Origin: a virus
Length of the DNA: 64,000 bases
Virus record (IMG/VR): IMGVR_UViG_3300030419_007201
Coordinates: 1-64,000 of that record
Direction: 5' to 3' (one strand)
The position numbers and the translations under genes were made by a program. The notes beneath the pieces are model-generated. The model searched no databases and had not been told where the DNA came from. It saw only the letters and a list, made by a program, of their open reading frames with translations. Every line of letters starts with the position of its first letter. Position 1 is the first letter of the stretch. Below, piece by piece: positions 8,857 through 57,687 of this stretch.

Positions 8857-9052
8857 CATCATACTCCTGATCACCGAACTTAACAACCGGGGGGTTGAGA
8901 ACAAATAACTCACCTTCGACATTTGTAAAACGCAAGTTTTTCAAAACAGGAACTATATCACTCTGCTCCAACAAGCTTTTCTGCAAACACATCATTAGCG
9001 ATCCCAAAGCCTCATCAGATAGCGTTGCTTCATTTAAATTAACATTACTCAT
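8840..9052 (-). CDS. Small acidic protein, unknown
   Basis: 70 residues, no Cys, acidic C-terminus (DQEYDDEQDS). It overlaps the cupin gene by 17 bases and gmd by 4, so it is inside the glycan operon. The AGGAG that serves the cupin gene lies in its 3' end. I recognise no family. Confidence 0.5.
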   Translation of the reverse strand: MSNVNLNEATLSDEALGSLMMCLQKSLLEQSDIVPVLKNLRFTNVEGELFVLNPPVVKFGDQEYDDEQDS

Positions 9053-16622: not shown

Positions 16623-16623
16623 A

Positions 16624-17469: not shown

Positions 17470-17472
17470 TGT

Positions 17473-20572: not shown

Positions 20573-20573
20573 C

Positions 20574-21050
20574 TTACCTTTTTAAGTTTAGATATCCAGG
20601 GCGTTTTTTGTATATAAAAGAAGAAAATATCATCTCCATTTCATCTACATTTGCTGGGTGGTGTACATCGATGTTGTCAAAAGCTGACATGATTTTTCTA
20701 TCGTCTTCTGCCCAGTGAGAGAACCCCAAATAACCATAATCTTTATCTCGTCCGCCGCCGACAAGCTTTACTGGTATCCCTTCATGATCTAAATAATTTC
20801 TGATCAATTCAAATGGCCTGTATAAAAGAAATGGTGTTATCGAATATACAATTGGAATCTTCCCTTCCATGGCCATTCCAGTAGCCATGCCCATCATAAG
20901 CTGCTCAGACGAGCCTACATTATAAAACCGACTAGGATAGTCAATCTTAATCTTATCCCATAGCCCATAACCTAAATCTCCTGTTATTAAAACAAGCCTA
21001 GGCTCGACGGCCATCTCATCGTGTAATAATTTGCTGAAGTCTTTTCTCAT
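20574..21050 (-). CDS. Transketolase-like subunit, pyrimidine-binding (C-terminal) half
   Basis: 158 residues corresponding to the PYR domain of transketolase: LVLITGDLGYG, then FYNVGSSEQLMMGMATGMAMEGKIPIV, where the Glu of SSEQ is the Glu that activates thiamine diphosphate. The usual third domain is missing. The ATG at 21050 has AGAGGA eight bases upstream and overlaps the N-terminal half by 35 bases, so this is a genuine two-gene enzyme and not a frameshift. Two-piece transketolases act in secondary and deoxysugar metabolism. Confidence 0.82.
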   Translation of the reverse strand: MRKDFSKLLHDEMAVEPRLVLITGDLGYGLWDKIKIDYPSRFYNVGSSEQLMMGMATGMAMEGKIPIVYSITPFLLYRPFELIRNYLDHEGIPVKLVGGGRDKDYGYLGFSHWAEDDRKIMSAFDNIDVHHPANVDEMEMIFSSFIYKKRPGYLNLKR

Positions 21051-21678
21051 TTTTACATTCCTCTAGAGCTAAGTTATAATCCTCTTCGCTCATAATATGA
21101 TAATGTGCATTGAGGCCTTTTAAAAATGAAAAATGATTCACCGTAGTATATTCTAGATTGATATCCGGATAAAAAGCTTTTAATCTATCAGCTAGATATT
21201 TTTCATCAACAGCATCATATGCAGCATATCCGTTTATATTAACATACACTTTGATATTTTTAATATTGTTTTCCTGTATATAGCGCAAAGATTCCCATAT
21301 TGAACCCTCTGCGCACTCACCGTCACTAATAAGACAGTAAACATCTCTATTTTTGTCTGCTAAAGCTCGGCCTACCGCGACGGTTAATCCAAGACCCAAA
21401 CTACCAGTTGAACAGTATATTTTGTTGTCTTCATCTCTATGCGGATGGCCGCCGTGCTTTTTAAACAGATCGTCAGCAAAGATACCATAATACTTCTCTA
21501 TCACAGCATACAACGCAATGGCGGCATGTCCTGACGACAAAATAAAGATATCTTCTTCTGACATTTGAGCGTAGATTTTATCAATAATATCAAGCGCAGA
21601 AAAATAGCTGCCCAAGTGAGACAAATTGTTTTTAAAGCCTATTTCTAATACTCTACGCTTCAGATCTAAATCTTCCAC
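21016..21678 (-). CDS. Transketolase-like subunit, thiamine-diphosphate-binding (N-terminal) half
   Basis: 220 residues. It carries S-H-L-G-S (LSHLGSYFSALDIID), HGGHPHRDED, STGSLGLGLTVAVGRALADK and SDGECAEGSIWESLRYIQENNIKNIKVYVNINGY, the GDGE...N motif for Mg-ThDP (with S for G). It pairs with the 20574 gene to form one ThDP site at the interface. The start is a GTG inside the end of the glycosyltransferase gene upstream. Together with rfbH it suggests two-carbon chain branching of a deoxysugar. Confidence 0.82.
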   Translation of the reverse strand: MEDLDLKRRVLEIGFKNNLSHLGSYFSALDIIDKIYAQMSEEDIFILSSGHAAIALYAVIEKYYGIFADDLFKKHGGHPHRDEDNKIYCSTGSLGLGLTVAVGRALADKNRDVYCLISDGECAEGSIWESLRYIQENNIKNIKVYVNINGYAAYDAVDEKYLADRLKAFYPDINLEYTTVNHFSFLKGLNAHYHIMSEEDYNLALEECKNEKRLQQIITR

Positions 21679-22397
21679 ATTTCACCCCAGTAAGTTTGTA
21701 TCATTTTATCATAGTTGATACCTTCTTGCTGGACATTCCATGTTGCTTGATCGGCATGCCAGCGGTAACAGTAGCCTAAGAAATTATTAATTGGCCATAT
21801 CAACACGCCCTTGTCTGCTAGGCGGCAATATAAATCATAATCTGCGGCGCCGCCGAATACTTCTGGAAATGTTTCTAAATGGCCACTATCATATAGTTTT
21901 CTATTATATATAACTGTTGGGCTGTTAACGGGACAACGCTGAAGGCATTGTTTTTTGAATTCATCAATCGACATGTAAGAGTGTGCTATGTGCCCTCGTC
22001 CGTCACCCAATTCTGTGACATTTAGTATGGGGCTCTGCATGGCATATATTTTATCTGGATGGATAGAAATATACTTCATACAATTCGCAACGTAGTCTTT
22101 CTGTAAAAAATCGTCGGATGCCAACGTAAACAAGTAATCGCCAGTAGAAAGCGAAAAGCCCTTCTCACGGGCTTCGTCCCAACAGTTAGGGTATATATTT
22201 GGCTCTGTATCTATAATAAGTTTGTCATATTTTTTTTGCAATTCTAATAGTTTATCACGAGTATTATCCGTGCTTTCATTATCGACAACAATTACTTCTA
22301 CATTTTCATAAGTTTGGTTTAAGGCCGATTCGACACATATTGTTATCCATTTTTCAGCGTTATAGCAAGGTATGATTATGCTTGCAGTAAAGCTCAT
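21666..22397 (-). CDS. Family 2 glycosyltransferase (GT-A)
   Basis: 243 residues with the GT2 opening SIIIPCYNAEKWITICVESALNQTYENVEVIVVDNESTD and LFTLASDDFLQKDYV, in which S-D-D is the nucleotide-metal site. It overlaps the transketolase half by 13 bases and the next gene by 4. It transfers a sugar in surface-glycan assembly; donor and acceptor are unknown. Confidence 0.85.
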   Translation of the reverse strand: MSFTASIIIPCYNAEKWITICVESALNQTYENVEVIVVDNESTDNTRDKLLELQKKYDKLIIDTEPNIYPNCWDEAREKGFSLSTGDYLFTLASDDFLQKDYVANCMKYISIHPDKIYAMQSPILNVTELGDGRGHIAHSYMSIDEFKKQCLQRCPVNSPTVIYNRKLYDSGHLETFPEVFGGAADYDLYCRLADKGVLIWPINNFLGYCYRWHADQATWNVQQEGINYDKMIQTYWGEMWKI

Positions 22398-23281
22398 AGC
22401 TCTAATAACTCCTTTACTCTATTACTATAAGTGTGGTTTTCTAAAATTAATTGCCTATTCTCTTCTTTTAAAGAAGTTAGATCTTTCTTGGCTAGCTCTT
22501 GTACTAACTGGCTCATTTCTTCTGGAGATTCGGCCAGAGGTACTTGTGGGAGTAACTTCTCCAACACAGAAATCTTATCGCTTACTAGGACTCCTGTAAG
22601 GCCTAAAGATTTAAATGTTCTTTCACTAGTATCCAAGCCGAGTACTCTCTGATAAGCGTCGTGTACATTTACAGCCAGTTTACTATTATACAATATCTTG
22701 TTTTCCACATCGTGTGAAATCGCTTTATTAATGAATATGCCACATTTTAAGTCTGTCTTCAACAGCGGCTTGAAGTGATCAATCATTATTTGTCTTTTCT
22801 CATTGAACCCATTATTTGCCCAGCCACCGATGAAACACACATCAAATTTATATCTCTCGTCTTCTAAAGGCTGATAGTTAATGTCATCATATGCCAAGTG
22901 TACAGTGTGGACTTTTTTCCATTTATAGTGGTAGTCCTCAATCTCGGTGAAAGACCACAAACGCACGTTATCCATTTCATTTAATTGTGTAATTACATGA
23001 TCTGGGCAGTTGGAAACGAAGTTGGGATGTGAGCCCCAAGGCTCTGGAAACTTATTTGGCTGTGCGTAGACATAAACCCTATCCGCAAGATTTAAATTAA
23101 AAATATCCTCATTTTTTATATCTGAATCTAGCGCCATGATCTGATGACGATCATTTGGCCTTATCTCGCTTAAAGAGTTATAATACTCTGTCTCATAACC
23201 TAGTTTTTCCCAAGCCGACTTATAGCCTTTATATATCCATCTTCCAGCATGTGAATTATGTCTTTTAATATAAATTTTCAT
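22394..23281 (-). CDS. GT-B glycosyltransferase, CgeB-like
   Basis: 295 residues. The C-terminal half (FDVCFIGGW, then NSKLAVNVHDAYQRVLGLDTSERTFKSLGLTGVLVSDK) resembles the spore-coat-type CgeB/glycosyltransferase-1-like donor domain; GVLVSDK and the Glu in LAESPEEM fit the E-x7-E region loosely. No signal peptide. Part of a run of five GT-B genes from 22.4 to 27.6 kb. Confidence 0.65.
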   Translation of the reverse strand: MKIYIKRHNSHAGRWIYKGYKSAWEKLGYETEYYNSLSEIRPNDRHQIMALDSDIKNEDIFNLNLADRVYVYAQPNKFPEPWGSHPNFVSNCPDHVITQLNEMDNVRLWSFTEIEDYHYKWKKVHTVHLAYDDINYQPLEDERYKFDVCFIGGWANNGFNEKRQIMIDHFKPLLKTDLKCGIFINKAISHDVENKILYNSKLAVNVHDAYQRVLGLDTSERTFKSLGLTGVLVSDKISVLEKLLPQVPLAESPEEMSQLVQELAKKDLTSLKEENRQLILENHTYSNRVKELLEL

Positions 23282-24198
23282 AAAGATACAATCTCCTTCA
23301 ATAGCTTGGTCAATCTAATCTTTGATTCATGATCTTTGATAAAGCGATTATAGCCATTCTGTGCTATCATATTGGACACCTCTGGTCTCTCTAACAACAT
23401 TTTAGCTTTTATCATCATCTCTTTTGGGCTTTTGAAAGTAACGATCTCTTTGTCTATCTCGTAACACTCCTCCAATCCCGGAGCATATTCTGTAAACAAT
23501 AGTGTCTTAGCGGCCGGCACTTCAAACATTCTGCCTTTAATCTGTAAAGTTGGCTTAGAGCCGTTATGGTTTTTACTAAAATTAATACCTATTCTGCTTT
23601 GCGCTATTGTTTTTAACATCTCCTTGTGTTGCAAGCCGTGAAAATGCTGTACATTCACTCCATTGCTTTTTAAATAATCAACATAGGAAACTCTGTCTTG
23701 ATTTAAATGCCCACAAAAGCTAATATCATGCTTTTTGTGTTGTTCTTCCTTTGGAAAAAGATCTATATTGGAATGCCAAAGGCCTAAAAGAATATTTTCG
23801 TACCCTGCTTCTTTTTTAAATTTCTCTAGATATGAAGCTTCTGGTGTTGAGCAAACATTGAAATAGTGACAAGCTTGTTTGGAAAAGTTCTCGAACCTCC
23901 ACGTCTCATCACAAAACCAATTAAATGTCACAATCTCGCTAGATTCTGTATATTTCTTTACTTGACGCCATGGCTCTCTTGGGGCTATACTAGGATCGTT
24001 AGTAAAACAACAGTATATGAGATCCGGCTCAAAAGCGCTTACAACGCTGTCGTAGTCAGTTTCTTCAGCGACTGTATCATACAGATATACATCATGTCCT
24101 AGTTCTACCAAGGGCAAGTATACATTCCAATAGCCTCCATCTATCCAAGTGTTCTTGCCGGAAGATAGAGTTTTGTTAAGCGTTAATAAAATCTTCAT
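23278..24198 (-). CDS. GT-B glycosyltransferase, CgeB-like
   Basis: 306 residues. It has the same plan as its downstream neighbour: HDISFCGHLNQDRVSYVDYL, AQSRIGINFSKNHNGSKPTLQIKGRMFEVPAAKTLLFTEYAPGLEECYEIDKEIVTF is the CgeB-type donor-binding signature. The EYAPGLEE end matches the family's sugar-nucleotide site. Likely transfers one residue of the glycan. Confidence 0.72.
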   Translation of the reverse strand: MKILLTLNKTLSSGKNTWIDGGYWNVYLPLVELGHDVYLYDTVAEETDYDSVVSAFEPDLIYCCFTNDPSIAPREPWRQVKKYTESSEIVTFNWFCDETWRFENFSKQACHYFNVCSTPEASYLEKFKKEAGYENILLGLWHSNIDLFPKEEQHKKHDISFCGHLNQDRVSYVDYLKSNGVNVQHFHGLQHKEMLKTIAQSRIGINFSKNHNGSKPTLQIKGRMFEVPAAKTLLFTEYAPGLEECYEIDKEIVTFKSPKEMMIKAKMLLERPEVSNMIAQNGYNRFIKDHESKIRLTKLLKEIVSL

Positions 24199-24199
24199 T

Positions 24200-25042
24200 T
24201 TATAAAAATTTTGTCAATACCATCTCTGGTATTGTATCCCTCATACTACGTACTTTATCTATCAGCTCTTTGCCCTTAAGGCTGAACCATTCTTCTTCGG
24301 TAGCAGATACGTTGTCGTTGGTGATAACCTTGCATCCTAACATTCTAGCCTCGACGACGACGCGACATAAAGTCTCTATTGTTTTTGGAAAAAAAACAAA
24401 TGTTTCATTTTTTGACAATCTAACAATGAACTCTTCATACGCACATGGAGGTATCATCTCATATTTTAAATCTTTAGCCTTGCAGTAGATCAAAGCATCT
24501 CTAGTGTTCTTGTGATCTATAGGAGAATTCATAACAGAGTGGCATTCTGTTTTTTTATGGGCTGATAGTTCTTCTATTTTATTCAGTATCGATTCCGGCC
24601 ATAGATTGCCGCCCACGCTTATAATATTGTCTAAATCTAAATTTTCTCTTGCTATATTAGCATGCTTTTCTGATTGGCAAAAGACTGCTAAAGCTGTCTC
24701 ATATAAATCTTTATTAATGACATCTTCTGGTGGTGCCTTGTAGTTGTCGTATACTGCTGGGTTTCTTGACTTCAAATACTTGTGATCATGTTCATACACG
24801 ACATATTTAGCTTTATCCATCAAACAAATAGCCGAGTCTTCTTTTAGATTAATAAAATTTGATACCACAAAGCCAGCATCTAGATTTTCTAATATATGTC
24901 CAGGTGTGAGAAGGTGGGAGTTGATTTTCAATACTTCGTGCCCTGAAGCCACGAATATATTCATTAATTCATGATTATTTAACTCTCCGCCTCCCAAAAC
25001 TCCATCGTCTACGAAAGCGTCTGCTATAAAAATAAATTTCAT
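24200..25042 (-). CDS. GT4-like glycosyltransferase
   Basis: 280 residues. FIFIADAFVDDGVLGGGELNNHELM opens like a GT-B N-domain with a Gly-rich loop, FCQSEKH is the typical hinge, and RVVVEARMLGCKVITND matches the donor-site E-x-x-x-x-G-x-x-V of GT4. The true ATG at 25042 overlaps the TGA of the upstream gene by one base; the reading frame also has a TTG just before it. Confidence 0.72.
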   Translation of the reverse strand: MKFIFIADAFVDDGVLGGGELNNHELMNIFVASGHEVLKINSHLLTPGHILENLDAGFVVSNFINLKEDSAICLMDKAKYVVYEHDHKYLKSRNPAVYDNYKAPPEDVINKDLYETALAVFCQSEKHANIARENLDLDNIISVGGNLWPESILNKIEELSAHKKTECHSVMNSPIDHKNTRDALIYCKAKDLKYEMIPPCAYEEFIVRLSKNETFVFFPKTIETLCRVVVEARMLGCKVITNDNVSATEEEWFSLKGKELIDKVRSMRDTIPEMVLTKFL

Positions 25043-26307
25043 CAATCAAATACCTTCTCATCTAAGTTTTCCAGCCAAGCGCCAACACTAAAATCTTCCT
25101 CTTCCCAGACAGCATCACAGAATTTACTGTATTGCTTTTCAGGCGTAAACTCTTCAAGTATGTGCTCTTTTAGCTTTTCAGCTTGTTTATTGAAGCGACC
25201 GATGTCTTTAAACATTTCACGCAATTTCATCTTATATGAACCCTGCTCAGCAAAACACCATTGTGAATCTTCCTGGATCACTCCATCCCAAACAGCCTCT
25301 TTCTGAACTGGACCCAAGGTATAATCTACCTTAGCAAACATTGCTTTGTTTTTTGTTTTCCCTTTCTTATCTTTAACAGGTGCAAAAAGAAAGTCACAAT
25401 GGCCGCTCCAATCTGGAGCTAATACAGGCAAATTATTGTAAGCTGCCTCAAACATAGGAAGCCCATAGCCTTCACCATGTGTCAAGCTTACCATGGCCTT
25501 GATTTTAGGATGACTATAGAGCCCAGCCATCTCTTCGTTGGTCATATGCCCGTGTAAAAGATGCACACTGCACTTTCTTTGTGGGTATCTAGATAAAAGC
25601 TCAGTAATCGCTCTTTCAGTTAGGTGCTTGTCTCTAACACCATTTCGTCCCAGAAAGCCTTTAATAACCAAGCCCACTGGCTGGTCAATAAACTCTTCGA
25701 CAAACCACTGAATCGTATTGGCGACATTCTTTCTTGGACCCAGTTGAGATACTAAAAGAAAATTAAAATCATGCTTCAGATCTAGATCTAGATTTTCTGG
25801 CTCAAAATCCCTGAAACAATAATTTACAACATCGATTGGTGTCTCTACCTTCCAATTTCGCACTATTTCACCAGTGTCTCTGTTGGTAATATCGTACCAA
25901 GTCGACTCATAAACTTGCTTTGCATGGTTAGAGACAACAATAATTTTATCCATCAAAAACGATTTTTCAATCCACTGAGGTGCTACCTTAGTTGTTTCTA
26001 TACCTGCCGTATAGCCAATGTTAATTGGAGCTATTTTTTCCCACTCATTGGGAATTGTCACCTGCAACGATATATCGTACTGTCCGCCAGATTGTCTATA
26101 GTTAATAGTCTTCTTAAAGATACTATCTAGCCATGCTCTCTCTTCGTCGTCTTCTTGAATCCAACCAGTGTTTCCCCAGCTAATATTTTCTATATAAATA
26201 TCAAACAAGTCTTCTTTGTGTCTCAAAGCTCGGAGTGCGAAACGACATTGCTCACCATATCCAGATCGTGACATGGCCGGTCCTTTGACCAATATCTTTT
26301 TTCTCAT
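25042..26307 (-). CDS. GT4-family glycosyltransferase
   Basis: 421 residues. GPAMSRSGYGEQCRFALRAL starts the acceptor domain; LLVSQLGPRKNVANTIQWFVEEF and SLTHGEGYGLPMFEAAYNNLPVLAPDWSGHCDFL form the donor domain, the latter with the E-G-x-G-L-x-x-x-E motif of GT4. A middle segment KVDYTLG and a long C-terminal helix follow. Catalyses transfer in glycan assembly. Confidence 0.85.
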   Translation of the reverse strand: MRKKILVKGPAMSRSGYGEQCRFALRALRHKEDLFDIYIENISWGNTGWIQEDDEERAWLDSIFKKTINYRQSGGQYDISLQVTIPNEWEKIAPINIGYTAGIETTKVAPQWIEKSFLMDKIIVVSNHAKQVYESTWYDITNRDTGEIVRNWKVETPIDVVNYCFRDFEPENLDLDLKHDFNFLLVSQLGPRKNVANTIQWFVEEFIDQPVGLVIKGFLGRNGVRDKHLTERAITELLSRYPQRKCSVHLLHGHMTNEEMAGLYSHPKIKAMVSLTHGEGYGLPMFEAAYNNLPVLAPDWSGHCDFLFAPVKDKKGKTKNKAMFAKVDYTLGPVQKEAVWDGVIQEDSQWCFAEQGSYKMKLREMFKDIGRFNKQAEKLKEHILEEFTPEKQYSKFCDAVWEEEDFSVGAWLENLDEKVFD

Positions 26308-27563
26308 GTTACCTCTTTTAATGTCCAGGTTTGGTAGTTCTTACGTGTATCCCAAGAGCCACTCTTTTCATGAATTTGTGTTAATAGCTCATCCCATTTA
26401 CTACCAAATTCTTCAAAACTATAGTTTTTTTGCAGGTGGGCTCGGCCCTTTTTGCCCATACTCTGGTGTTTCTTTTTAGTCATTTTATACATCTTTTCCA
26501 AAGCATCGACAAAATCTTGCTCATTGAGTCTATCCTCGTAAATGTAAGGAATATCCTGCGACCCAATAATGGCCTTGGAGGCCGGCTCGATTCCAATTCC
26601 AAACCAGTCCTTTCCATTGGTCACCTGCTCTTGCAAGCCCCCAGTCATGCAGACAATGATTGGTGTTTCGCATGAGAGCGACTCTAAAGTTGCCAATCCA
26701 AATCCCTCTGCATCAGAGATATTGACCGTGCAATGAGCTACATTGTATAGCATTGATAACTGTTGTGGCGGCAGTTTTTGTGTTGAAAAGACAACCTCTC
26801 CATTTGTCATCCCTAACTTATCTAAAATGGCTTGCAAATCTTGACCATATGGATCCTTTGGATCTGTGTGCATCATTAGCATGGCCTTGTCGCTTCCTAC
26901 TCTCTCTAAGAACTTTTTCCACCAAAAAATCAAAGTTCCACTCTGCTTTCTTCTGGCATTTCTGTTGTTCCAAAAAAATATTTTTTTACCTTTATGAGCC
27001 TGTAAAAATTCATCTCTAAATTTTTGTACATCCTCGTCTGGAAGCTTTTTAAAAATATCCGGATTAACAGCATGCGGAAGATAGTGTGCTTCAACATTTT
27101 GTGTCACGTTTTGTACAATATCGTGTGTAACTTTTGAAATGCTCACTATAACATCATTGCTTTCATAAGCGAATTTATTAAAATCGGGATATGGATAGTT
27201 ATCCCAAACATGATAATAGACCATGGGCATGTGGCAACGAATCTCGTCCTCCATCTCCCACAGCCATCCCCAGAAGCGAGGATCGGTCATAAACCACAGC
27301 ATGTCTGGTCGCTCAGTTCTCATGAGTGAGCGAACTAGATCTTGTGTGCCGTATCCATCGACGGGATACATAACCCAGTCATCGCCCCATTCTTCAGTTT
27401 TTATTGGTTCGTAGCTTTCATGTTTAACGGCGCCGCCAACAGAAACAACTTTGTATTTCCCTGTTTTTAGCAAACACTCAATCATGTATCTTGTTTGAGT
27501 TCCAACCCCAGATGGGGATAAAGGATGATCACTTAGAGTAAGGATCTTAATTTTATCTGACAC
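26304..27563 (-). CDS. GT4-family glycosyltransferase
   Basis: 419 residues. HPLSPSGVGTQTRYMIECLL, KIFFWNNRNARRKQSG and NISDAEGFGLATLESLSCETPIIVCMTGGLQEQV show the GT4 layout, E-G-F-G-L-A-x-L-E being the donor motif. It begins the glycosyltransferase run and is separated from the nuclease gene upstream by only 14 bases. Confidence 0.87.
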   Translation of the reverse strand: MSDKIKILTLSDHPLSPSGVGTQTRYMIECLLKTGKYKVVSVGGAVKHESYEPIKTEEWGDDWVMYPVDGYGTQDLVRSLMRTERPDMLWFMTDPRFWGWLWEMEDEIRCHMPMVYYHVWDNYPYPDFNKFAYESNDVIVSISKVTHDIVQNVTQNVEAHYLPHAVNPDIFKKLPDEDVQKFRDEFLQAHKGKKIFFWNNRNARRKQSGTLIFWWKKFLERVGSDKAMLMMHTDPKDPYGQDLQAILDKLGMTNGEVVFSTQKLPPQQLSMLYNVAHCTVNISDAEGFGLATLESLSCETPIIVCMTGGLQEQVTNGKDWFGIGIEPASKAIIGSQDIPYIYEDRLNEQDFVDALEKMYKMTKKKHQSMGKKGRAHLQKNYSFEEFGSKWDELLTQIHEKSGSWDTRKNYQTWTLKEVT

Positions 27564-30810: not shown

Positions 30811-30818
30811 ATAAATAG
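30811..30818 (-). promoter_or_regulatory. CTATTTAT motif upstream of phoH
   Basis: On the coding strand this reads CTATTTAT, 17 bases before the phoH ATG. The same octamer stands upstream of at least five other minus-strand genes; see the finding. The reverse complement is ATAAATAG. Confidence 0.4.
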
Positions 30819-34968: not shown

Positions 34969-35295
34969 TGGTGGAGATGCCGGGAGTCGAACCCGGGTCC
35001 TAAATAGTCATCATTATTTGTCGTTCACAAGGTTAGAAAAATGACCCGCCGCATTATTCAAGCCCGCCTCGCATGAGACACTCCAATACTAACAAATGCT
35101 TTTTTAGGATAAAAGCCATCCTTAATATGCAACTTTTGTTAACAAGGCAGTTACCGCCCCGTGATTATGCCGCTAAAGCGTAATCAAAAGCAACGTTATC
35201 GTTGGCGTTTAAAGGTTTGAGTGTTTTTACTGTGCCACACTCACACAGCCTTGCACAAACAATAAATTATACCTAGTCGATACCAGTTCATCCCC
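34969..35295 (-). ncRNA. ssrA: tmRNA
   Basis: 327 nt transcribed right to left. The 5' end GGGGATGAACTGG pairs its GGGGATG with CATCTCC before the encoded ACCA; the T arm is CCGGG-TTCGACT-CCCGG. The tag frame at 35165-35206 reads GCC as resume codon, then codes A-N-D-N-V-A-F-D-Y-A-L-A-A and stops with TAA. This is a proper degradation tag ending ALAA. Its job is to rescue ribosomes stalled on broken mRNA. Intact one-piece tmRNA genes are rare in phages. Confidence 0.93.
35165..35206 (-). other. tmRNA tag-peptide reading frame
   Basis: The coding strand reads GCC AAC GAT AAC GTT GCT TTT GAT TAC GCT TTA GCG GCA then TAA, i.e. 13 codons ending Ala-Leu-Ala-Ala. The ALAA end is the known degradation signal for ClpXP-type proteases. 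Confidence 0.9.
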
Positions 35296-44778: not shown

Positions 44779-46719
44779 TTAGTTGCCACCTTGGCATATA
44801 TCATCAAGAATCTCCATTAAACTCGCATACATCTCAGTAGGATTATTAGTTAGCTTATACCAGTCGCCATTTCCTATATTAGCAAGCTCTTCCCAGGAAA
44901 TTTTATGACTAGTGCGCGAAAAAGTATACAATTTCAGTTGCGGCACTCCTGAAACCGCTGACTTTACATCTTCCAGGGCCAATTCAGGCTCCAAATAGCT
45001 CTGAGGGTGTTCATCTGTAAAGACAATTATAATTCTATCAGCACCAGGGCGCCAACTTATGTTAAAATTCTGGATCGGAGGTACTGATTGAACAACATCT
45101 TTAGGGTATGTACCTACAACACCTGTCCATTGTAATTCTGGGATGGAATACGGCAATATAGATGTGATATTGTGAACCGATAAGTAAATTGCATCTAATA
45201 TCATCTCATATGATGTCTGCATTGTATCTGCGCTGGAGTCCATCGATGCCAAAGACAACAAATATTCTGAAAACCCTACCAAATCTTGCTGTAGTTCCAG
45301 TCTTTCATAATATGATGGAGTGCCTATAGATACGGGGCCCCTCAAGAAAGACCATTTAATGACCTCTTCATCACTAAAATTCTGAGCAAACTGATTTAGC
45401 GCGATCATCACAGCATCCATCTCATCGCCCATAGATCCTGACCAATCAACTATAAAAAGCACATCAGTAGGCTTCATTTCTTCGCCCCAGTCTGTTATGC
45501 CGTCACAGTTGTCATCAATGCCATTACAGATTTCTTCTTGAGGTACAATCTCATCTTTGCAGTAATACGCAATGAAGTCCTCGTCGTCATTATAATTACC
45601 CCAGGTGCCGGCATCACACGTCATGATTCCTGGTTCACATATGCCAACTAGAAGAGTGCCTTCTGGTCCGGTATAACAAGCTGAATATAAATCTTCGTCG
45701 ATCAGTTGATTGCAATTCTCGTCAAAGTTGTTACACTTCTCTTGCTCAACTATCATACCAACAAGCGGATCGCATATATCAGCAGGGTCTGTTGGTGGTA
45801 TCCACTGACACAAGGCATAGCACTCTGTCATCGTAAGAGTTGTGCAGCCTGGATCAACGCATTCACATGTTTTATAACCCTGGCCACATAACAGAGGATC
45901 TTCTTGGCATGGAAATAGCACCCCTACATCCTGTATTGTACATACGCACTCTAGCCCTTCATCGATTTGATTATCGCAATCGTTGTCTAGGCCATCACAT
46001 ATTTCGTCATTTACCGGGGGTGCCGTACAAGATATCCAATTACCACTGTCGCACATTTCGTAACCAGAGCCACATGCAGTACTGCAAGGCTGAATTAGAT
46101 CTTCATCAGTAATACCGTTGCAGTTATCATCAATATTGTTGCAAGTTTCTGATGGTAATATGCCACAATCGTTGCATGCATTAAGCTGTCCTTCATCAAT
46201 CTGGCCATCGCAGTCGTCATCTTCATAATTACACGCCTCTTCTTCACAATCTGTTACACAGTCTGTATACTGTATTTTTCCCTTATTACAAACTTTTTCT
46301 TGCTGACCAGGAAACCCTTCGGGAGTTGTACATTGTAGGTATTCTAAATGATATTGTGTAGGGTCACACTCTAGATATTCTTCGCATTCACTCTCATATA
46401 CTAAAATCGGAGGATCTTTACATATATCATGACAAATTTGTTTTTGCCAAACTGAATCGAGTGGTGGACAAAAATACCACTTACATTCCCAACAACTATC
46501 TCTGTAAGCCTTAAGGATGGCCTCTGTGACAGCTGGATCGTATGGAGCTAGTAGAGGTGGGATTACATTAATTAATGGCGTTTCTGATCCTGCTTCTTCT
46601 TGAGTCGTATCCGAGCATGATATTACTTGAGCTACCAAGATCATAATCGTTATACATACAGGCGCGTATTTTTTTAAAATTTTTTTAAAACGCGAAGCTG
46701 TATGTAATATTAATTTCAT
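44779..46719 (-). CDS. vWA-domain lipoprotein with MopE-type metal-binding repeats
   Basis: 646 residues. Signal peptide and lipobox (QVISC35). Then several Cys-rich repeats of the form C-N-x-x-D-D-N-C-N-G-x-x-D-E-D-L and C-D-G-L-D-N-D-C-D-N-Q-I-D-E-G-L, like the MopE/metal-binding motif. DVLFIVD425-W-S427-G-S429-M gives a complete MIDAS D-x-S-x-S, followed by a vWA-type fold ending ICQGG. Such proteins are common in Myxococcota and related bacteria. In a phage the gene may be host-derived and be displayed on the infected cell. It overlaps the Nudix gene by four bases. Confidence 0.82.
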   Translation of the reverse strand: MKLILHTASRFKKILKKYAPVCITIMILVAQVISCSDTTQEEAGSETPLINVIPPLLAPYDPAVTEAILKAYRDSCWECKWYFCPPLDSVWQKQICHDICKDPPILVYESECEEYLECDPTQYHLEYLQCTTPEGFPGQQEKVCNKGKIQYTDCVTDCEEEACNYEDDDCDGQIDEGQLNACNDCGILPSETCNNIDDNCNGITDEDLIQPCSTACGSGYEMCDSGNWISCTAPPVNDEICDGLDNDCDNQIDEGLECVCTIQDVGVLFPCQEDPLLCGQGYKTCECVDPGCTTLTMTECYALCQWIPPTDPADICDPLVGMIVEQEKCNNFDENCNQLIDEDLYSACYTGPEGTLLVGICEPGIMTCDAGTWGNYNDDEDFIAYYCKDEIVPQEEICNGIDDNCDGITDWGEEMKPTDVLFIVDWSGSMGDEMDAVMIALNQFAQNFSDEEVIKWSFLRGPVSIGTPSYYERLELQQDLVGFSEYLLSLASMDSSADTMQTSYEMILDAIYLSVHNITSILPYSIPELQWTGVVGTYPKDVVQSVPPIQNFNISWRPGADRIIIVFTDEHPQSYLEPELALEDVKSAVSGVPQLKLYTFSRTSHKISWEELANIGNGDWYKLTNNPTEMYASLMEILDDICQGGN

Positions 46720-48593: not shown

Positions 48594-48748
48594 TTTAAAT
48601 TAATTCCTATCTTTTTCGCTTCAATAATAGCCAGTACAGGAATTCCTGGATTTTTTGAATTGGTATACTTATCCCAAGCTTGTTTCATTCTGTCATATGA
48701 GACAAAATTACAAATTAACTCACCCATTAAGAATCTACGCCAAGTCAT
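48590..48748 (-). CDS. 52-residue protein with tag-like start
   Basis: ATG at 48748 has GGAGG nine bases upstream, inside the end of the previous gene, and the TGA overlaps the next start as ATGA. MTWRRFLMGE resembles the class-1 tag (W-R-R-F-L-x-G-E) without its front half. The rest is a short helix. It is a real but tiny gene. Confidence 0.6.
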   Translation of the reverse strand: MTWRRFLMGELICNFVSYDRMKQAWDKYTNSKNPGIPVLAIIEAKKIGINLK

Positions 48749-49634
48749 CCTTACGTTCCTCCAAGAACAACGGGAACAGCCCGACTAAACACCCTATTAT
48801 AATGCCAATAACACTAGCTTGTTTGTCTAAAAACCTCATCCACACAGGGCCGGCTGCTACTTGCTCATCAGTTACCGATTCAGGATCCAAACCCATTTTG
48901 TCCAGAGCACCTTCAATTGTGTTACTAGCTAATTCTCCAACCGCGTCGGAGACAGTGTTACCAAAGCCGGCCGCTAACATTGGCGCGGCAGTGGAGCCTA
49001 CCATAGCACCTGCTACGCCACCAAACTGAGCGTCGATATGTGATCCTGCAATAACCATAATAAAGTTATCAATAAAGCCGAAAACAAACGATCCTATAAA
49101 GTTAGAGACAAACCTAATTAACCAATCTTTAACTTTTGGAGGTGCGACCTTACCAATAACATCCTCTGCCGCTTCTATAAGTGCCTCGGCACCATTATCA
49201 GAAACAGTGTGAGCTACTAATTCAATAGTTTCTTGACCTACTCCCATTTTTGCCAAGTCTTCTAAAGAAAATTGTTTTGTATCTGGCGAATCAACGAACT
49301 TTTCCATCAAGGCTGTAGTGTCTTTGTTTTGAGAAACCTTATCAGCAATATCTCTTCCAATTTCTTGCATGTCCTCAGATTGAGCTAAAGATTCTAATCT
49401 TTCTTTAAATTTTATCTCAAATTTTGCTTTAGTATCTTCAATCATCCGATCGAATTCTTCAGGAGCATTTATTAATTTGCTAAAACCAGTTTTAATATAT
49501 TCTAATGGCCCTTCGGTACCTAAAGCTTTTCTCATTTTATAAGCAGAAGATCCCGGGATATATTCCGTAACATCTTCGTTAACATCTTCTACTTCTTTTA
49601 AATATTTTCTCCAATTTTCAAATAATTCTTTCAT
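48735..49634 (-). CDS. Tagged membrane protein (class 1)
   Basis: 299 residues. Tag MKELFENWRKYLKE. The first part is helical and acidic. The C-terminal half holds hydrophobic segments (FVSNFIGSFVFGFIDNFIMVIAG, AGAMVGSTAAPMLAAGFG, SVIGIIIGCLVGLFPLFL), three probable membrane helices. A packaged protein that inserts in or crosses the membrane on delivery would fit (inference). An in-frame start at 49646 would add four residues. Confidence 0.68.
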   Translation of the reverse strand: MKELFENWRKYLKEVEDVNEDVTEYIPGSSAYKMRKALGTEGPLEYIKTGFSKLINAPEEFDRMIEDTKAKFEIKFKERLESLAQSEDMQEIGRDIADKVSQNKDTTALMEKFVDSPDTKQFSLEDLAKMGVGQETIELVAHTVSDNGAEALIEAAEDVIGKVAPPKVKDWLIRFVSNFIGSFVFGFIDNFIMVIAGSHIDAQFGGVAGAMVGSTAAPMLAAGFGNTVSDAVGELASNTIEGALDKMGLDPESVTDEQVAAGPVWMRFLDKQASVIGIIIGCLVGLFPLFLEERKDDLA

Positions 49635-50110
49635 GCGCCAGCCCACCTTTTTAGTTCTTCATAATCAGACTTAGAGCTTTTCTCAGAGGCAACATTAGCA
49701 CCTGGATTGGGTGTTCCATGATACCACACGTAGTCTCCAGCTTCTATCAGCGTATCAATCCAATTATCAAACGGGGCGCCCTCCAGACTCACGTCGTAGA
49801 GGTCCGCTACCTGATTAACTATCTCAATGGCGTGATCTTCTATAGAATTTGCGATAAGGTACGGAGCATCATCGAAGGGAATTTCACCAGAAATATAACC
49901 ATCGAGTCGAGAAATATATGTTTTAACCGCCTCTAAAATTTCATCAAAGATTCGAAGCATATCCATGTTACCAGTCATTTCTGCTAGCTGCTTAGCTTGC
50001 ACTCCGCTTCCCCAAAATATAGCTAAGAGCTTTTCGTTATCACTGTCTCCTAGTTCAAATTGTTGTGACTCATTAATATAATATCGCCAGTTTTCAAATA
50101 GGGATTTCAT
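49631..50110 (-). CDS. Tagged protein (class 1), unknown body
   Basis: 159 residues. Tag MKSLFENWRYYINE. Helical body with a Trp/His-containing C-terminus (YVWYHGTPNPG). That short string YHGTPN resembles the H-G-T-x-x of some ADP-ribosyltransferase or RNA 2'-phosphotransferase-type folds, but no full domain can be built. The overlap with the next gene is 17 bases. Confidence 0.65.
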   Translation of the reverse strand: MKSLFENWRYYINESQQFELGDSDNEKLLAIFWGSGVQAKQLAEMTGNMDMLRIFDEILEAVKTYISRLDGYISGEIPFDDAPYLIANSIEDHAIEIVNQVADLYDVSLEGAPFDNWIDTLIEAGDYVWYHGTPNPGANVASEKSSKSDYEELKRWAGA

Positions 50111-52495: not shown

Positions 52496-52954
52496 TTAGT
52501 TCCATTTGTAGGTTTCCCTAAATATTTCTGCGCCTACAACGCCATAATCTCCGGGTCCATATTGCACCAAAAAATCTCCTACCTCTCCTTGTAATAGATC
52601 GGGAGACCAAGAGACCTTTACTTGAAATGGCTGCTGCATTTCTTTGGCAAATACTGGAATATCTTTCTTTGATGCCAGCCCGGGCATTATAATATCATAA
52701 GTCTGGGAAAAGCTTTCAGCAGGGATCGGCCATTGTTCGCCTTTTGTGCCGGTCATAATAGCATCCCCGGGATTAGCGTTTACCGGGCCTTCTTTTGTTT
52801 CAATTGTCTCAGCGCCTGAAGCATATCTAAATTGAAGAGGAATGGGTTTTTTAGCAGTTTGAAAAGCTTCAGGATCTTGAGATAGATCTGGGTTATCGTC
52901 TGCCCCGATGGCTTCATTTATATACTTGCGCCAATTTTCAAATAGAAGTTTCAT
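52496..52954 (-). CDS. Tagged protein (class 1), unknown body
   Basis: 152 residues. Tag MKLLFENWRKYINE. The body is beta-rich with repeated Gly-Asp turns (NPGDAIMTG, GPGDYGVVG). It resembles small barrel domains but is not recognised. The tag ends I-N-E. Confidence 0.65.
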   Translation of the reverse strand: MKLLFENWRKYINEAIGADDNPDLSQDPEAFQTAKKPIPLQFRYASGAETIETKEGPVNANPGDAIMTGTKGEQWPIPAESFSQTYDIIMPGLASKKDIPVFAKEMQQPFQVKVSWSPDLLQGEVGDFLVQYGPGDYGVVGAEIFRETYKWN

Positions 52955-53811
52955 GACAGGGAGCCCATATCCGGATCTGTAGCATACTGAAACTCGTAAC
53001 TTGATTCCTCCCAGCCGGCTTCAATAGCATCAATAATTTGATCTGGGGTAGGATTATGATTATTATACAATAAACTTTTTATGTGTGATAGCGCATATGC
53101 TACATTAGACATCGCTTCTGGATCTTTGCTATCTGGATCATATAATTCATATTCTTCTTCATGTCCTGCTGCTTGTTTCCATAGTATGTTATATAGATCT
53201 GCGGCAGCTGTTGCTCCAGCTGGGCCATATGCGTTTGAAAAGCCTTCCATTAGATTTTTTGTCAATGAAATTCCTCGCGCTTTCCTATCTTTTGTGTCAA
53301 TATACACTTTATAACCCATCTTTTCTAGTTTTAGACATTCGTCTGAGTGAGCCCAGCGATTCTGTACCAATCTAGTAAATTCTGGTGCATGTTCTCTAGA
53401 GTCTGTATTTAATTGTACAGTAATGTGTTTACCATCCACATACATGCTATTAATTGGTATTTCTAGTACATTTTGAGCAGATTCTTCAATTGTTTTAATA
53501 ATTTCTGGATCTAATGCTAAATTTAATTGAATTGGATCTTTTGTACGAGACAAGAAGGCTTCTAAGTCTTCTCCTGGTTCTGAGGCTCGCGTCGGCCAAA
53601 GATCTGCATTTTCTGTACCATCTGGAAAGGTTATTGTGTACACTCGTCCGCCGGAAGTGTCGTGATAATCAACTATAGGTTGCCCTGGGCTCCATCGATG
53701 GTGTGAGGTTTTAGCAGAATTATAGCTATATTTATCGGTTATTATATCTTCTAAAGATGATGATTCATTAAGTTTATGATACTTTCGCCAATTTTCAAAT
53801 ATATCTTTCAT
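52951..53811 (-). CDS. Tagged protein (class 1), unknown body
   Basis: 286 residues. Tag MKDIFENWRKYHKLNE (two extra residues before L-N-E). Mixed alpha/beta body, with no catalytic signature recognised. It overlaps the next gene at ATGA. Confidence 0.65.
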   Translation of the reverse strand: MKDIFENWRKYHKLNESSSLEDIITDKYSYNSAKTSHHRWSPGQPIVDYHDTSGGRVYTITFPDGTENADLWPTRASEPGEDLEAFLSRTKDPIQLNLALDPEIIKTIEESAQNVLEIPINSMYVDGKHITVQLNTDSREHAPEFTRLVQNRWAHSDECLKLEKMGYKVYIDTKDRKARGISLTKNLMEGFSNAYGPAGATAAADLYNILWKQAAGHEEEYELYDPDSKDPEAMSNVAYALSHIKSLLYNNHNPTPDQIIDAIEAGWEESSYEFQYATDPDMGSLS

Positions 53812-53819
53812 AATAATAA

Positions 53820-55007
53820 TTACCTGTCAAAAATGATTACTTCCCCAGTTTGATAAGAAATTCCAAAATTACCTAAATGCACATCACGAGTAAGATTTCC
53901 GTAAATAAATTGATCACCTACCGAGACAGCTAAATCATACATCGCTGTTAAAAAATCTTTTAAAAGCTTTGCGCCGGTACCGGATTGCAGAACGGGTGGT
54001 ATGGCCGGCAAATCTATAGGATCGACGCCATCGTCGCGATACTCTGGTTCTTGAGCCCAGCCATACTTCTGTATAAACGCGCTATTGTTTTCCAATCCTT
54101 TCTTTTGAATCCATTCAAGAACATATTTAACATATTCGTCTGCGCCCCCTGCGACCATAGTGAAAGGCTTGATATGATGTTTTTCTAGTTCACGATCATT
54201 CGCGATGTTATACATTGAGTTATTAGCTGCATCTTGCATGCCGTTAAAAAGATCTGTATCGAAAAATGTTTCAATAATGCGACCACCTTGTACATCTTCG
54301 TATTCGTCTAACCAGTTTTCAAATGGAATAACTTTTCCAATTTCAGCATAGCCGGCATATTTTACGGGATTGACCATATCTCTCTCTGCATTCGGTACAT
54401 ACATCGGCATTGTACCATATTCGTATACAGCTAGATCATGTGATCTTGCGGCTCCTCCAACTTGGGAATTTAAAAGCTTAGCATAGGTTTCAAGCTCTTT
54501 CTGCAAGCCGTAAACCCCACTTTTAAAAATTTTAACTACATGATCATTGCTGAACAATATCGCGATGCCAAAGCCACCTTCTCCAAGTACTTTTACAAAT
54601 TTATGATCTTTAAAAATATTACTTGGGGTGCCGGCGCCTTCGGTTGTACCTTGTGTTGCACCTTCTAATGAATTACATGAAAATGTTCCCGCATTTCTCC
54701 ATTCATAACCTTTGATCCATTTTTTTAATTCAGCACAATTAAAAGCAATATTTTCTAAAGACTTTGGGGGCCGTTGAGCCTGAGCCTGTTCGAATTCTTC
54801 AGGAGATGATTTGCGATGTTGGCTTACTTCATCATCGGCTTTCCATTGTTTAAATTTTTCCCAGTCAGCCTCAGTAGATGAAGGGCTCTCCTTCCACTTG
54901 GCAGCTAATTTTGTACGCTCCGCAGGTGGCTGGCGGTTGTCTAAAGCAGAGATAACATCGTCAACATACGCCTCTCGAATAAATTTTTGCCAATTTTTTA
55001 TTTTCAT
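53820..55007 (-). CDS. Tagged protein-kinase-like protein
   Basis: 395 residues. The start MKIKNWQKFIREA keeps N-W-x-K-F-I-R-E. KVLG142-EGGFG147-IAI and VVK159-IF are a kinase glycine loop and Lys. The last residues, TRD375-V-H-L-G-N380-FGI then IIFD394-R, match the catalytic D-x4-N and the DFG Asp, but the protein stops right after it, so the activation segment and C-lobe are absent or replaced. It may be an inactive or atypical kinase (aminoglycoside-kinase- or Fam20-like), or a pseudokinase sensor. Confidence 0.7.
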   Translation of the reverse strand: MKIKNWQKFIREAYVDDVISALDNRQPPAERTKLAAKWKESPSSTEADWEKFKQWKADDEVSQHRKSSPEEFEQAQAQRPPKSLENIAFNCAELKKWIKGYEWRNAGTFSCNSLEGATQGTTEGAGTPSNIFKDHKFVKVLGEGGFGIAILFSNDHVVKIFKSGVYGLQKELETYAKLLNSQVGGAARSHDLAVYEYGTMPMYVPNAERDMVNPVKYAGYAEIGKVIPFENWLDEYEDVQGGRIIETFFDTDLFNGMQDAANNSMYNIANDRELEKHHIKPFTMVAGGADEYVKYVLEWIQKKGLENNSAFIQKYGWAQEPEYRDDGVDPIDLPAIPPVLQSGTGAKLLKDFLTAMYDLAVSVGDQFIYGNLTRDVHLGNFGISYQTGEVIIFDR

Positions 55008-55009
55008 GG

Positions 55010-55732
55010 TTAAAGGTCATCATCATCCGGTAATGTTCCTGGCCCAGAGGGATCGAAGCCCTGTGCATTTTCTGTCCAGCCATCAGTACGCTGAAAATCT
55101 GTCTCGTTCTTAGTATCAGGTACCCACCTATCAAGAAACTTATTCATCTTTTTAACTAGGGCCCTGCTTGCTTTTGTTGGATCCTTGTCTTGTTGTCTGG
55201 CGACTGCTTCTTTTATGGGCCCTACTTCATCATCAAACTTATCTTCAATTTGTTTTAAAATTCTACAAATTTGCATTTCAGCATTTTGTTCGCACCCTGC
55301 TCTTTGGTTTGGAAGAGTTTCAGTCCAAAAAGTATCAACTGCTGCGTAGACTTCATCCCATGCTACTAATGTGTCTTCTTGGAGCCCAGTACTGTCCCAT
55401 GCGCCTTCGTGGAGCCAGTGAGTAGATCGAGGTCCAATATACTTTTCCATCTTATTTGCAAGTTCTGGAAGGGTCTTTACACTAGCAGCTGCTTGAGTAG
55501 ATGTTATTCCATAAGCAGCTGCACTAGGCTCAGCTTGAGCGGTTGCTACTTGAGAAGTGGTCGAAGGCGGTGCTGCTTGAGCAGGTGTGGGCGCGCCTAA
55601 AGAGGATAAACCCATGGCTGCAGCAATAGCAGCATCCTTCCAACCTTCTTCAATTGGAGTATCGACTCGATTTTCAGCTTTAATAATCTCTTCTTTAATT
55701 ATTTGTTGTAATCTTTGTTTTGTAATTTTCAT
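55010..55732 (-). CDS. Tagged protein (class 2), unknown
   Basis: 240 residues. MKITKQRLQQIIKEE is a near-perfect class-2 tag (I-I-K-E-E). The next stretch is Ala/Pro/Thr-rich, then a helical part with four Trp and two Cys. It could be an internal head protein. Ends by overlapping nothing; it abuts the 53820 gene. Confidence 0.62.
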   Translation of the reverse strand: MKITKQRLQQIIKEEIIKAENRVDTPIEEGWKDAAIAAAMGLSSLGAPTPAQAAPPSTTSQVATAQAEPSAAAYGITSTQAAASVKTLPELANKMEKYIGPRSTHWLHEGAWDSTGLQEDTLVAWDEVYAAVDTFWTETLPNQRAGCEQNAEMQICRILKQIEDKFDDEVGPIKEAVARQQDKDPTKASRALVKKMNKFLDRWVPDTKNETDFQRTDGWTENAQGFDPSGPGTLPDDDDL

Positions 55733-56472
55733 TATGAAATTTCCTTGTTTTCTCTAAGACCTAAATCAGTGGCTAAGTCATCAGTAAATTGTGGTCGCTG
55801 GCTAAAAAAGTCTGGATCCTTAGCATAAAACTCAGCCATATCTGTTAAATATTGATAAACATTAGCTTCTTCGCCAAACTCTTGTTGAAGAAGAGGAATA
55901 ATTTTTTTTAACAATCCTGGAAATTTAGCCATATCCGTAGCAGCTAGTCTGGGCCAGCCCTCTTGAAGCATCTCGCGTCCTGATTTGTCGAAAAATGATT
56001 CTGCTAGCCAGCGATCTAAATCATCCATTTGCCTATCATATTCAGCTGCTCTTGGGTGATCTGGGCGATGACCTCCTCTTGAAGGAGCAGGGGGTGGCAT
56101 TTTTGCTATTTTTGCTGTCTTGCCGGGAACTGCTTCTTGCTCATAGCCCGGCACATCTTCAAACCTTCCGTACATCCATTCGTCGTCGTCGATGTTTTCT
56201 TCAAGATCACCCTCTTCTAACTGGCCAGATTCCTTATCTTGCAAATATCTCTTCGCACCTGTTGCGTTACGGAATCCATCGTCATAAGGGTCTATATAAC
56301 CTAGTCTTTCTGCCTCTTCTGCCTCTTCGCGGGTTAGCGGTCGACCATGTGGATCTGGTTCAGAATAATCGTGAGAATGGCCTTCCGTTAAGGTATTTTG
56401 TTCTTCTCGTGTTATTGTTTCATTTAAAAAGTATCTTGGGTCAATACGTTTCTTGTTCTTAGTTGGTTTCAC
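55732..56472 (-). CDS. Acidic protein with possible tag-like motif, unknown
   Basis: 246 residues. The start has DPRYFLNET, in which F-L-N-E ends like a class-1 cleavage site. The middle is acidic (DLEENIDDDEW) and the end helical. Nothing recognised. It shares overlaps of 1-4 bases with both neighbours. Confidence 0.5.
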   Translation of the reverse strand: MKPTKNKKRIDPRYFLNETITREEQNTLTEGHSHDYSEPDPHGRPLTREEAEEAERLGYIDPYDDGFRNATGAKRYLQDKESGQLEEGDLEENIDDDEWMYGRFEDVPGYEQEAVPGKTAKIAKMPPPAPSRGGHRPDHPRAAEYDRQMDDLDRWLAESFFDKSGREMLQEGWPRLAATDMAKFPGLLKKIIPLLQQEFGEEANVYQYLTDMAEFYAKDPDFFSQRPQFTDDLATDLGLRENKEIS

Positions 56473-57506
56473 TTCTTAATACCTCCCATAAGCAATATAG
56501 CAACCAATCCTGGGACGTTATCTCTAATATAGACCCCAGAGAATAAAGTCTCGGTTCGTCCGCCGACATATGAAATAGCAGCATCCATATGTTGACTAAT
56601 ATTAGGATCATCTGCCATTTCTGGAGATACTACCAATAATAGCGCACCTGTCTTTGATTTTTCTTGTGAACTTGGGCAAGGAGATCTCTTAAGACAATTT
56701 TGATATATCATTGCTCCTAAGTTATCAACATTAGGGTCTCGAATTACCGTAGTACCAACAAGCATACGATTTTGTTGCTTTAAACAACGTTCCAAGTCCT
56801 TAGAATCAAAAGATTGAATAGCTGACTTTTCTGATGCTAGTTTAAAAGTTTGAGTTAGTAACTTAGCAAACGCTGAGTTGGCAGTTGGGAACAGCTTTGA
56901 CATACCAACCTTGCCTCTGAGAATTTTAACCTGTCTTTCATTATCTAATATAATGTGAGGTGAAGACTTGACATCATTTGATAGAGATAGCGCATTTTTA
57001 GCTATTGTAGAGTTAAGCAACTCTTGAGAAGTAGGCCATGTAACTATATAGAATACTTTACCTTCTGCCCCAACAGACTTTAAATATCTTTTAAATACAT
57101 CGTCTAAAGCATGACATGCGCTACCAGTACCTCCGCCGCCGCCAGCAAGGACAAAAATCCAATCAACTTTTCCTAACTTTGTACGAAGCGCGTCTTCTAC
57201 AACGGCACTATTCTGACCAAATACATCTTTTCCAAATTCTACGTTTTTTGCCACGCCGTCTGCGTCTGGAATCAGTACTAAGTGTTTTGGATCTACATTG
57301 TCAGGCTGATCTTTTGCTGTTGTATTAATAAGGAGTGTTTTGTTGAACCCAATATCTAAGAAGGCTTTTGCTAGCTTGCCACCTCCTCCTCCGACTCCTA
57401 TAAATGCGCAATTTAAAGCGCACTCAACTTCATTCTGTGGTAATTCGTTAGTTTGTGCTACTTCGTCTGCATCTCCATAGTGGTCGACAAAATCAAATTC
57501 TTCCAT
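56469..57506 (-). CDS. FtsZ/tubulin-like GTPase
   Basis: 345 residues. FIGVGGGGG43-K is the T1 loop, and LAGGGGGTGSACHALDD at about 120-136 is the tubulin/FtsZ signature (G-G-G-T-G-x-G, here G-G-G-G-G-T-G-S). The rest has alternating strands and helices (IILDNERQVKIL, then LVGTTVIRD, LLLVVSPEM) but it is shorter than FtsZ and lacks its C-terminal tail. Tubulin-like PhuZ of jumbo phages positions a phage nucleus; this may do likewise. AGGAG lies upstream. Next to it is a small membrane-anchored coiled-coil gene. Confidence 0.8.
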   Translation of the reverse strand: MEEFDFVDHYGDADEVAQTNELPQNEVECALNCAFIGVGGGGGKLAKAFLDIGFNKTLLINTTAKDQPDNVDPKHLVLIPDADGVAKNVEFGKDVFGQNSAVVEDALRTKLGKVDWIFVLAGGGGGTGSACHALDDVFKRYLKSVGAEGKVFYIVTWPTSQELLNSTIAKNALSLSNDVKSSPHIILDNERQVKILRGKVGMSKLFPTANSAFAKLLTQTFKLASEKSAIQSFDSKDLERCLKQQNRMLVGTTVIRDPNVDNLGAMIYQNCLKRSPCPSSQEKSKTGALLLVVSPEMADDPNISQHMDAAISYVGGRTETLFSGVYIRDNVPGLVAILLMGGIKK

Positions 57507-57516
57507 TTCCCTCTCC

Positions 57517-57687
57517 TTATTTTAAAGTACGTATCTGTTTGTTAATTCTTTTAATTTGTTTACTCATTGATGCAACATCATCTTCAAGCGAATCAATTCT
57601 TGACTGTGTTGTGTAATAAAAGCCACCTAAAGTTGCAGCAATTGTTAATAAAGTAATTAGTGTCTTAATGTCCAATTTAAGATCCAT
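57517..57687 (-). CDS. 56-residue membrane/coiled-coil protein beside the tubulin gene
   Basis: ATG at 57687 begins MDLKLDIKTLITLLTIAATL (one membrane helix, about residues 9-25), then YYTTQSRIDSLEDDVASMSK, a heptad-like coil ending KRINKQIRTLK. It ends ten bases before the FtsZ-like start. It may be a membrane anchor for the filament (inference). It overlaps the DUF6356-like gene by 11 bases. Confidence 0.65.
   Translation of the reverse strand: MDLKLDIKTLITLLTIAATLGGFYYTTQSRIDSLEDDVASMSKQIKRINKQIRTLK

Follow-up and report, generated by a model that had tools for sequence, protein, structure and literature searches.

Does the tubulin-like gene of this virus encode a genuine member of the tubulin/FtsZ family, in what kind of phage does it occur, and what might it do there? 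So far, tubulins of phages have been familiar chiefly from nucleus-forming jumbo phages, in which they form the spindle. The window (the whole stretch of DNA analyzed, 64,000 nucleotides) is part of a 66,078-bp linear IMG/VR record, which carries PhoH, a sigma factor, sugar and glycosyltransferase genes, and a tmRNA. The phage-encoded tmRNA (34969-35295, minus strand; tag ANDNVAFDYALAA) might assist in identifying the host. Genes for nucleotide-sugar epimerases, aminotransferases, and glycosyltransferases form a long run of the surface-sugar type of cassette (9049-27563, minus strand), and a 646-aa protein (44779-46719, minus strand) with MopE-type metal-binding motifs and a partial VWA domain has relatives in the records G001 and G015.

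The tubulin gene and its upstream neighbour

The features of the gene and of the small gene preceding it are as follows.

56469-57506, minus strand: predicted tubulin/FtsZ-family GTPase gene, 345 aa, with an acidic N-terminal extension and without a C-terminal tail
57375-57401, minus strand: T1 loop IGVGGGGGK (residues 36-44)
57120-57143, minus strand: T4 loop with the tubulin signature GGGGGTGS (residues 122-129)
56790-56819, minus strand: T7 catalytic loop IQSFDSKDLE (residues 230-239)
57517-57687, minus strand: small gene, 56 aa, with one hydrophobic helix and a coiled coil as judged from the sequence

A preliminary description of this DNA had proposed an FtsZ/tubulin-like GTPase with a complete GGGGGTGS signature. 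The signature is indeed intact in the 345-aa reading frame, and the family assignment was borne out by Pfam, by matches to FtsZ structures, by the AlphaFold/Foldseek tubulin fold, and by homologues (56-82% identity). Against the Pfam Tubulin family, the window protein reached an E-value of 1.6e-6 and 29 bits, slightly below the curated cut-off of 33. FtsZ structure chains were matched with an E-value of 3e-7 when the single sequence was used and of 6e-9 with the family profile. An AlphaFold2 model, computed from a 29-sequence family alignment (pLDDT 90.3, pTM 0.88), shows a tubulin fold with the GTPase and C-terminal domains, as in the superfamily. With this model, Foldseek retrieved CetZ, FtsZ, and TubZ at a probability of 1.0; the best viral models (BFVD) were FtsZ-like proteins of uncultured phages, at 18% identity and TM 0.71-0.78. 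Residues D234 and D237 line up with the T7 aspartates of FtsZ in the alignment. The Pfam and FtsZ E-values, the confident fold model, and the homologues place the similarity to tubulins beyond chance. Judged by predicted fold and motifs, the product of 56469-57506 is a genuine tubulin/FtsZ-family GTPase, and it is predicted to be, probably, a filament-former.

Structural comparison with PhuZ and FtsZ, the check proposed at the outset, gave a divided answer: the FtsZ/CetZ/TubZ fold was recovered at a probability of 1.0, but PhuZ was distant (TM ~0.53). An identification of the protein as PhuZ was rejected, as the named PhuZ shares only 12% identity with it at that TM score and a tblastn search of 50,697 phage records was negative.

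The same description had paired the GTPase with a membrane coiled-coil partner encoded by 57517-57687, which would anchor the filament to the membrane. The small gene shares the strand of the tubulin gene, whose start follows after a gap of 10 bp, and its product does look like a protein with one membrane helix and a coil, both of which speak for such an anchor. Among the fetched tubulin-bearing relatives, however, no homologue of the 56-aa protein was found; different genes stand upstream of tubulin from locus to locus, and 85 of 115 immediate upstream neighbours are same-strand genes in which no membrane segment is predicted. The protein itself gave weak PHROG matches to Rz-like spanin and holin families, and the gene is possibly lysis-related. 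Inheritance is thus unlinked and the partnership fails: by this comparison of loci, 57517-57687 is not a conserved partner of tubulin, and we regard membrane anchoring through it as highly improbable.

Distribution, conservation, and carrier phages

Searches with a single sequence missed most of the family (INPHARED, 0 hits; viral contigs, 1; genomes, 0). It was uncovered by a DNA pattern for PHIILDNE, followed by an alignment-guided scan. In total, at least 109 viral IMG/VR contigs of up to 281 kb encode a relative of the tubulin. Five further contigs, probably binned phage, were found in Flavobacteriales and Halobacteriovorax MAGs, which is a weak hint at these groups as hosts. Apart from these five, the bacterial and archaeal genomes searched held no match, and no convincing match was obtained in the 50,697 deposited phage records (INPHARED; tblastn among the searches). 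A pattern for FYIVTW occurred in three contigs, of which L001's own alone encodes the tubulin. These searches suggest a distinct, seemingly undescribed family, for which an earlier mention in the chimallin/phuz diversity literature is possible.

Conservation was assessed in 112 distinct near-full-length proteins. Invariant positions comprise (i) G37, G39, G40, G42, and K44 of the T1 loop; (ii) N61 and N210; and (iii) the T7 aspartates D234 and D237 (112/112). E162 and N189 are conserved as well; conservation of residues 121-128 and 183-190 arises partly by construction, these peptides having served as search patterns, and so does the invariance of the T4 loop signature, AGGGGGTG being among the patterns. 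Between 0 and 7 residues follow G342, or the last strand, in the 112 proteins, so that a C-terminal tail is absent. Instead, all of them carry an N-terminal extension of at least 30 residues, with a mean of 17.5 D+E versus 2.8 K+R per 60 residues, and 106 contain the N-terminal motif [DE]F[DGES][FMILVY][VLIM]. The idea that tubulin is itself leader-tagged and processed was discarded, because a possible LPE site in the N-terminal tail is not retained in the window's subgroup.

The family tree has two halves, both well supported, and the minimum pairwise identity is 49% (reduced set). When reciprocal-best proteins were compared between genomes, using home-made ORF calls, tubulin came first in G002/G003 (88.5% versus a median of 54%, n = 102), followed by an epimerase-like protein (87%); the terminase stands at 79% there. 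It also ranked first in G000/G006, G000/G001, and G000/G015, i.e. in four of nine comparisons, and second to fifth in the remaining five. Thirty records contain a close terminase, and in 17 of them tubulin lies 2.5-6.9 kb upstream of it. As 12 of the 13 negative records stop short of the farthest tubulin position observed and are uninformative, tubulin occurs in 17 of the 18 terminase relatives that are informative (hand count from contig ranges). A tubulin homologue match with one in-frame TGA was noted at 143730-144782 of G044 (the record of L149, 185 kb).

The window fragment yielded no capsid gene in the family search. It has a block of genes in common with longer relatives, one of which (G002) encodes a T4-type terminase, portal, and gp23. 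The gp23 family was present in every tested tubulin-bearing virus record of at least 122 kb, and absent from 201phi2-1. Judged by the gp23-type capsid, portal, and terminase genes of the long relatives, the carriers are T4-like phages. The nearest deposited terminases are those of Flavobacterium phage immuto and Microcystis phage Mel-JY01; the 25 kb surrounding the immuto terminase contain no tubulin. Many uncultured, mostly marine phages of the T4-like type carry this tubulin, and in their clade it appears near-core.

The chimallin family (phrog_4795) was found in 0 of 17 tubulin-bearing records, some possibly incomplete, with 201phi2-1 as a positive control. The absence of a chimallin-like gene from the window, noted in the preliminary description, says little by itself, the window being part of a 66,078-bp record; the relatives of up to 281 kb are also negative. 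The PhuZ/jumbo-phage frame in which the gene had been placed does not suit these carriers, given the low TM score to PhuZ, gp23 capsids of a kind lacking in 201phi2-1, and no chimallin found.

Gene neighbourhood and leader-tagged proteins

Three gene orders recur around the tubulin: (i) SbcC, tubulin, small membrane or lysis-like genes, terminase; (ii) a scaffold-like gene, major capsid protein (MCP), tubulin, neck; and (iii) tubulin, prohead protease. The window's own arrangement is a further type, not beside capsid genes. Profiles confirmed MCP (phrog_138), protease (phrog_207), and neck adaptor (phrog_211) as neighbours; the labels scaffold, holin, and spanin reflect sequence appearance only, PHROGs giving no match. 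The arrangement with MCP and neck may be ancestral, because it is found in both halves of the tree. This neighbourhood is circumstantial evidence for the role of the tubulin.

Two alternative roles can be weighed against these data. According to the first, the tubulin would perturb the Z-ring by co-assembly or sequestration, block division, and thereby provide a larger cell for virions. Among families with solved structures, FtsZ is the nearest by sequence, but at ~20% identity co-assembly is doubtful, and both the tubulin's position amid the late genes for head and lysis and the terminase-level conservation fit a phage-internal role better; we consider interference with host division rather improbable. 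The second, that filaments centre the phage DNA or a replication compartment without a chimallin shell, appeals to PhuZ, a member of the same superfamily that positions the phage nucleus in Chimalliviridae (PMC10299810), and to the adjacency of tubulin and SbcC in many genomes. Since neither sequence nor close structure identifies the protein as PhuZ, chimallin was not found, and the neighbours are mostly head and lysis genes, PhuZ-like positioning seems quite improbable.

Downstream of the tubulin gene lies a run of genes with N-terminal leaders.

55732-56472, minus strand: downstream gene, 246 aa, GTG start, overlapping the tubulin stop by 4 bp
56413-56472, minus strand: RIDPRYF-type leader of the downstream gene
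52496-55732, minus strand: further leader genes in the same run, with N-termini MKLLFENWRKYINE, MKDIFENWRKYHKLNE, MKIKNWQKFIRE, and MKITKQRLQQIIKEE (read directly)

In the product of the downstream gene, the leader KNKKRIDPRYFLNE begins after four residues. Its pattern, RKNxxRIDPRYFLNE, is conserved on unrelated bodies: across 24 distinct RIDPRYF-leader proteins the leader identity is 75%, and the bodies belong to 13 unrelated families. In the fetched loci, which were chosen around tubulin, 34 of 37 such genes lie within 3.5 kb of it on the same strand. In 30 whole records (3.7 Mb), 19 DPRYF sites were detected: 17 share the strand of tubulin and lie no more than 7 kb from it, and 12 are downstream of it at up to 3.5 kb. 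None of 20,000 trials with random placement matched this linkage; the significance is overstated, because related records are not independent. The leader regex was strict, so that leader counts are incomplete and too low. Several tubulin-bearing records in the scan are without any RIDPRYF site, and in some records the sites flank SbcC and do not touch tubulin. Other tubulin neighbours carry ENWRKYLNE or ITKQQLKQIIKEE leaders.

Near-identical N-termini of the form MKxLFENWRKYLxE or MKITKxxLKxIIKEE were also noted on different bodies scattered over 35620-58745 (minus strand) and in G001-G003, G014, and G015. One ENWRKYLKE-leader protein (48735-49646, minus strand) contains a TMEM65 domain (Pfam E-value 5.6e-22). 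A 395-aa leader protein (53820-55007, minus strand) has the kinase-like stretches GEGGFGIA...VVKIFK and DVHLGNFG...IIFDR and matched neither Pfam nor PHROG families.

The ENWRK and ITK N-termini resemble the capsid targeting sequences of T4. The internal proteins of T4 are diverse, their only common feature being this short N-terminal sequence, and T4-type proteases cleave after Glu (PMC3012670, PMC5694885). The downstream gene similarly combines a short N-terminal leader ending in Glu with diverse bodies among its kin. As a putative targeting signal, the RIDPRYF leader differs in sequence from the capsid targeting sequence of T4 and is linked to the tubulin gene. From the linkage of the leader genes and their likeness to capsid targeting, we infer that the tubulin may sit among genes for head-internal proteins; 55732-56472 is a candidate client.

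Possibly, then, the tubulin would not move capsids; a filament or oligomer of it would gather RIDPRYF-, ENWR-, and ITK-leader proteins into the prohead core. The 17 of 19 linked sites, the 4-bp overlap of the window's leader gene with tubulin, and the resemblance to T4 capsid targeting sequences (PMC3012670, PMC5694885) argue for such cargo loading. We nevertheless consider it unlikely, as several tubulin-bearing records are devoid of the site and the sites beside SbcC may reflect linkage to a common variable locus. Moreover, T4 loads its internal proteins without tubulin.

A hint at timing comes from ACTATTTA, which occurred 52 times within 60 bp upstream of genes on its own strand in seven records, versus ~3 expected. 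Because the genes so preceded include scaffold-like and tail genes, ACTATTTA is likely a late promoter element of these phages. Sites were located in G002, G003, and G006, and in the window at 30812, 36143, 43794, and 61523 (minus strand). In G006, one copy heads the tubulin operon; the gene of a 659-aa leader protein follows it immediately and overlaps the start of tubulin. The T4 late promoter TATAAATA had no consistent strand bias.

A proposed role in head production and comparison with known systems

The reading we prefer, and in which our confidence is evenly balanced, is that of a late, dynamic filament organizing head production. Fold, motifs, conservation, and context were computed; polymerization, timing, and targets are what we infer. 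The tubulin would self-assemble and hydrolyse GTP, giving dynamic filaments late in infection. These could organize head production, e.g. by placing or transporting the proheads or the replicated DNA that fills them, and perhaps also help to load leader-tagged internal proteins. The acidic N-terminal tail with its [DE]F[DG][FM]V-like motif would act as a docking handle in place of a C-terminal tail. Support is drawn from the fold, the GTPase and T7 residues, the strong conservation, and the presence in 17 of 18 terminase relatives, together with the MCP, neck, prohead protease, SbcC, and terminase neighbours, ACTATTTA, and the RIDPRYF linkage. That T4 builds its heads without tubulin counts against it. 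PhuZ provides both a precedent, as its filaments carry capsids (PMC10299810, PMC13282480), and a counterargument, as it is dispensable in Chimalliviridae (PMC10299810).

According to a 2025 survey, tubulin is a distinguishing function of Chimalliviridae, and few other large phages carry one (PMC11835377). The separate family described here is widespread in a T4-like lineage, where it is near-core and where the nucleus shell was not detected; this suggests a phage-made cytoskeleton outside the 'phage nucleus' viruses. With T4 as a model of head assembly that needs no tubulin, why a T4-like phage constrains a cytoskeletal gene becomes a testable question, for which the leader-tagged downstream gene offers a candidate client to begin with. 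A more far-reaching proposal, that head morphogenesis in the whole clade relies on the phage's own tubulin, a core factor that uses an N-terminal tail in place of a C-terminal one and recruits or loads the variable RIDPRYF-tagged proteins whose genes follow its own, is possible though doubtful. If true, a viral cytoskeleton would serve capsid building or cargo loading, not the positioning of a phage nucleus.

Among known systems, PhuZ is likewise a phage-encoded tubulin-superfamily GTPase of similar size, but shares only 12-16% identity (TM ~0.53) with the window tubulin. PhuZ has a C-terminal tail following the tubulin core; the family described here has the acidic N-terminal extension and no such tail, and belongs to a T4-type gp23 lineage in which chimallin was not found. 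It is also near-core and highly conserved, whereas one-third of Chimalliviridae lack PhuZ (PMC10299810). TubZ, a tubulin GTPase of mobile elements, is closer in fold (TM 0.75-0.77, normalized to the query), but at 16-17% identity and with a long C-terminal helix that is absent from the window tubulin model; nor did a partner of the TubR type emerge for the window tubulin. The FtsZ-like proteins of uncultured phages in BFVD (A0A6J5RW92 and A0A8S5UFG9) reach TM 0.71-0.78, yet only 18% identity. Although the window protein is phage-encoded, lacks a C-terminal tail, and shares only ~20% identity with them, FtsZ and CetZ are its closest counterparts by sequence and fold, with matching T1, T4, and T7 elements.
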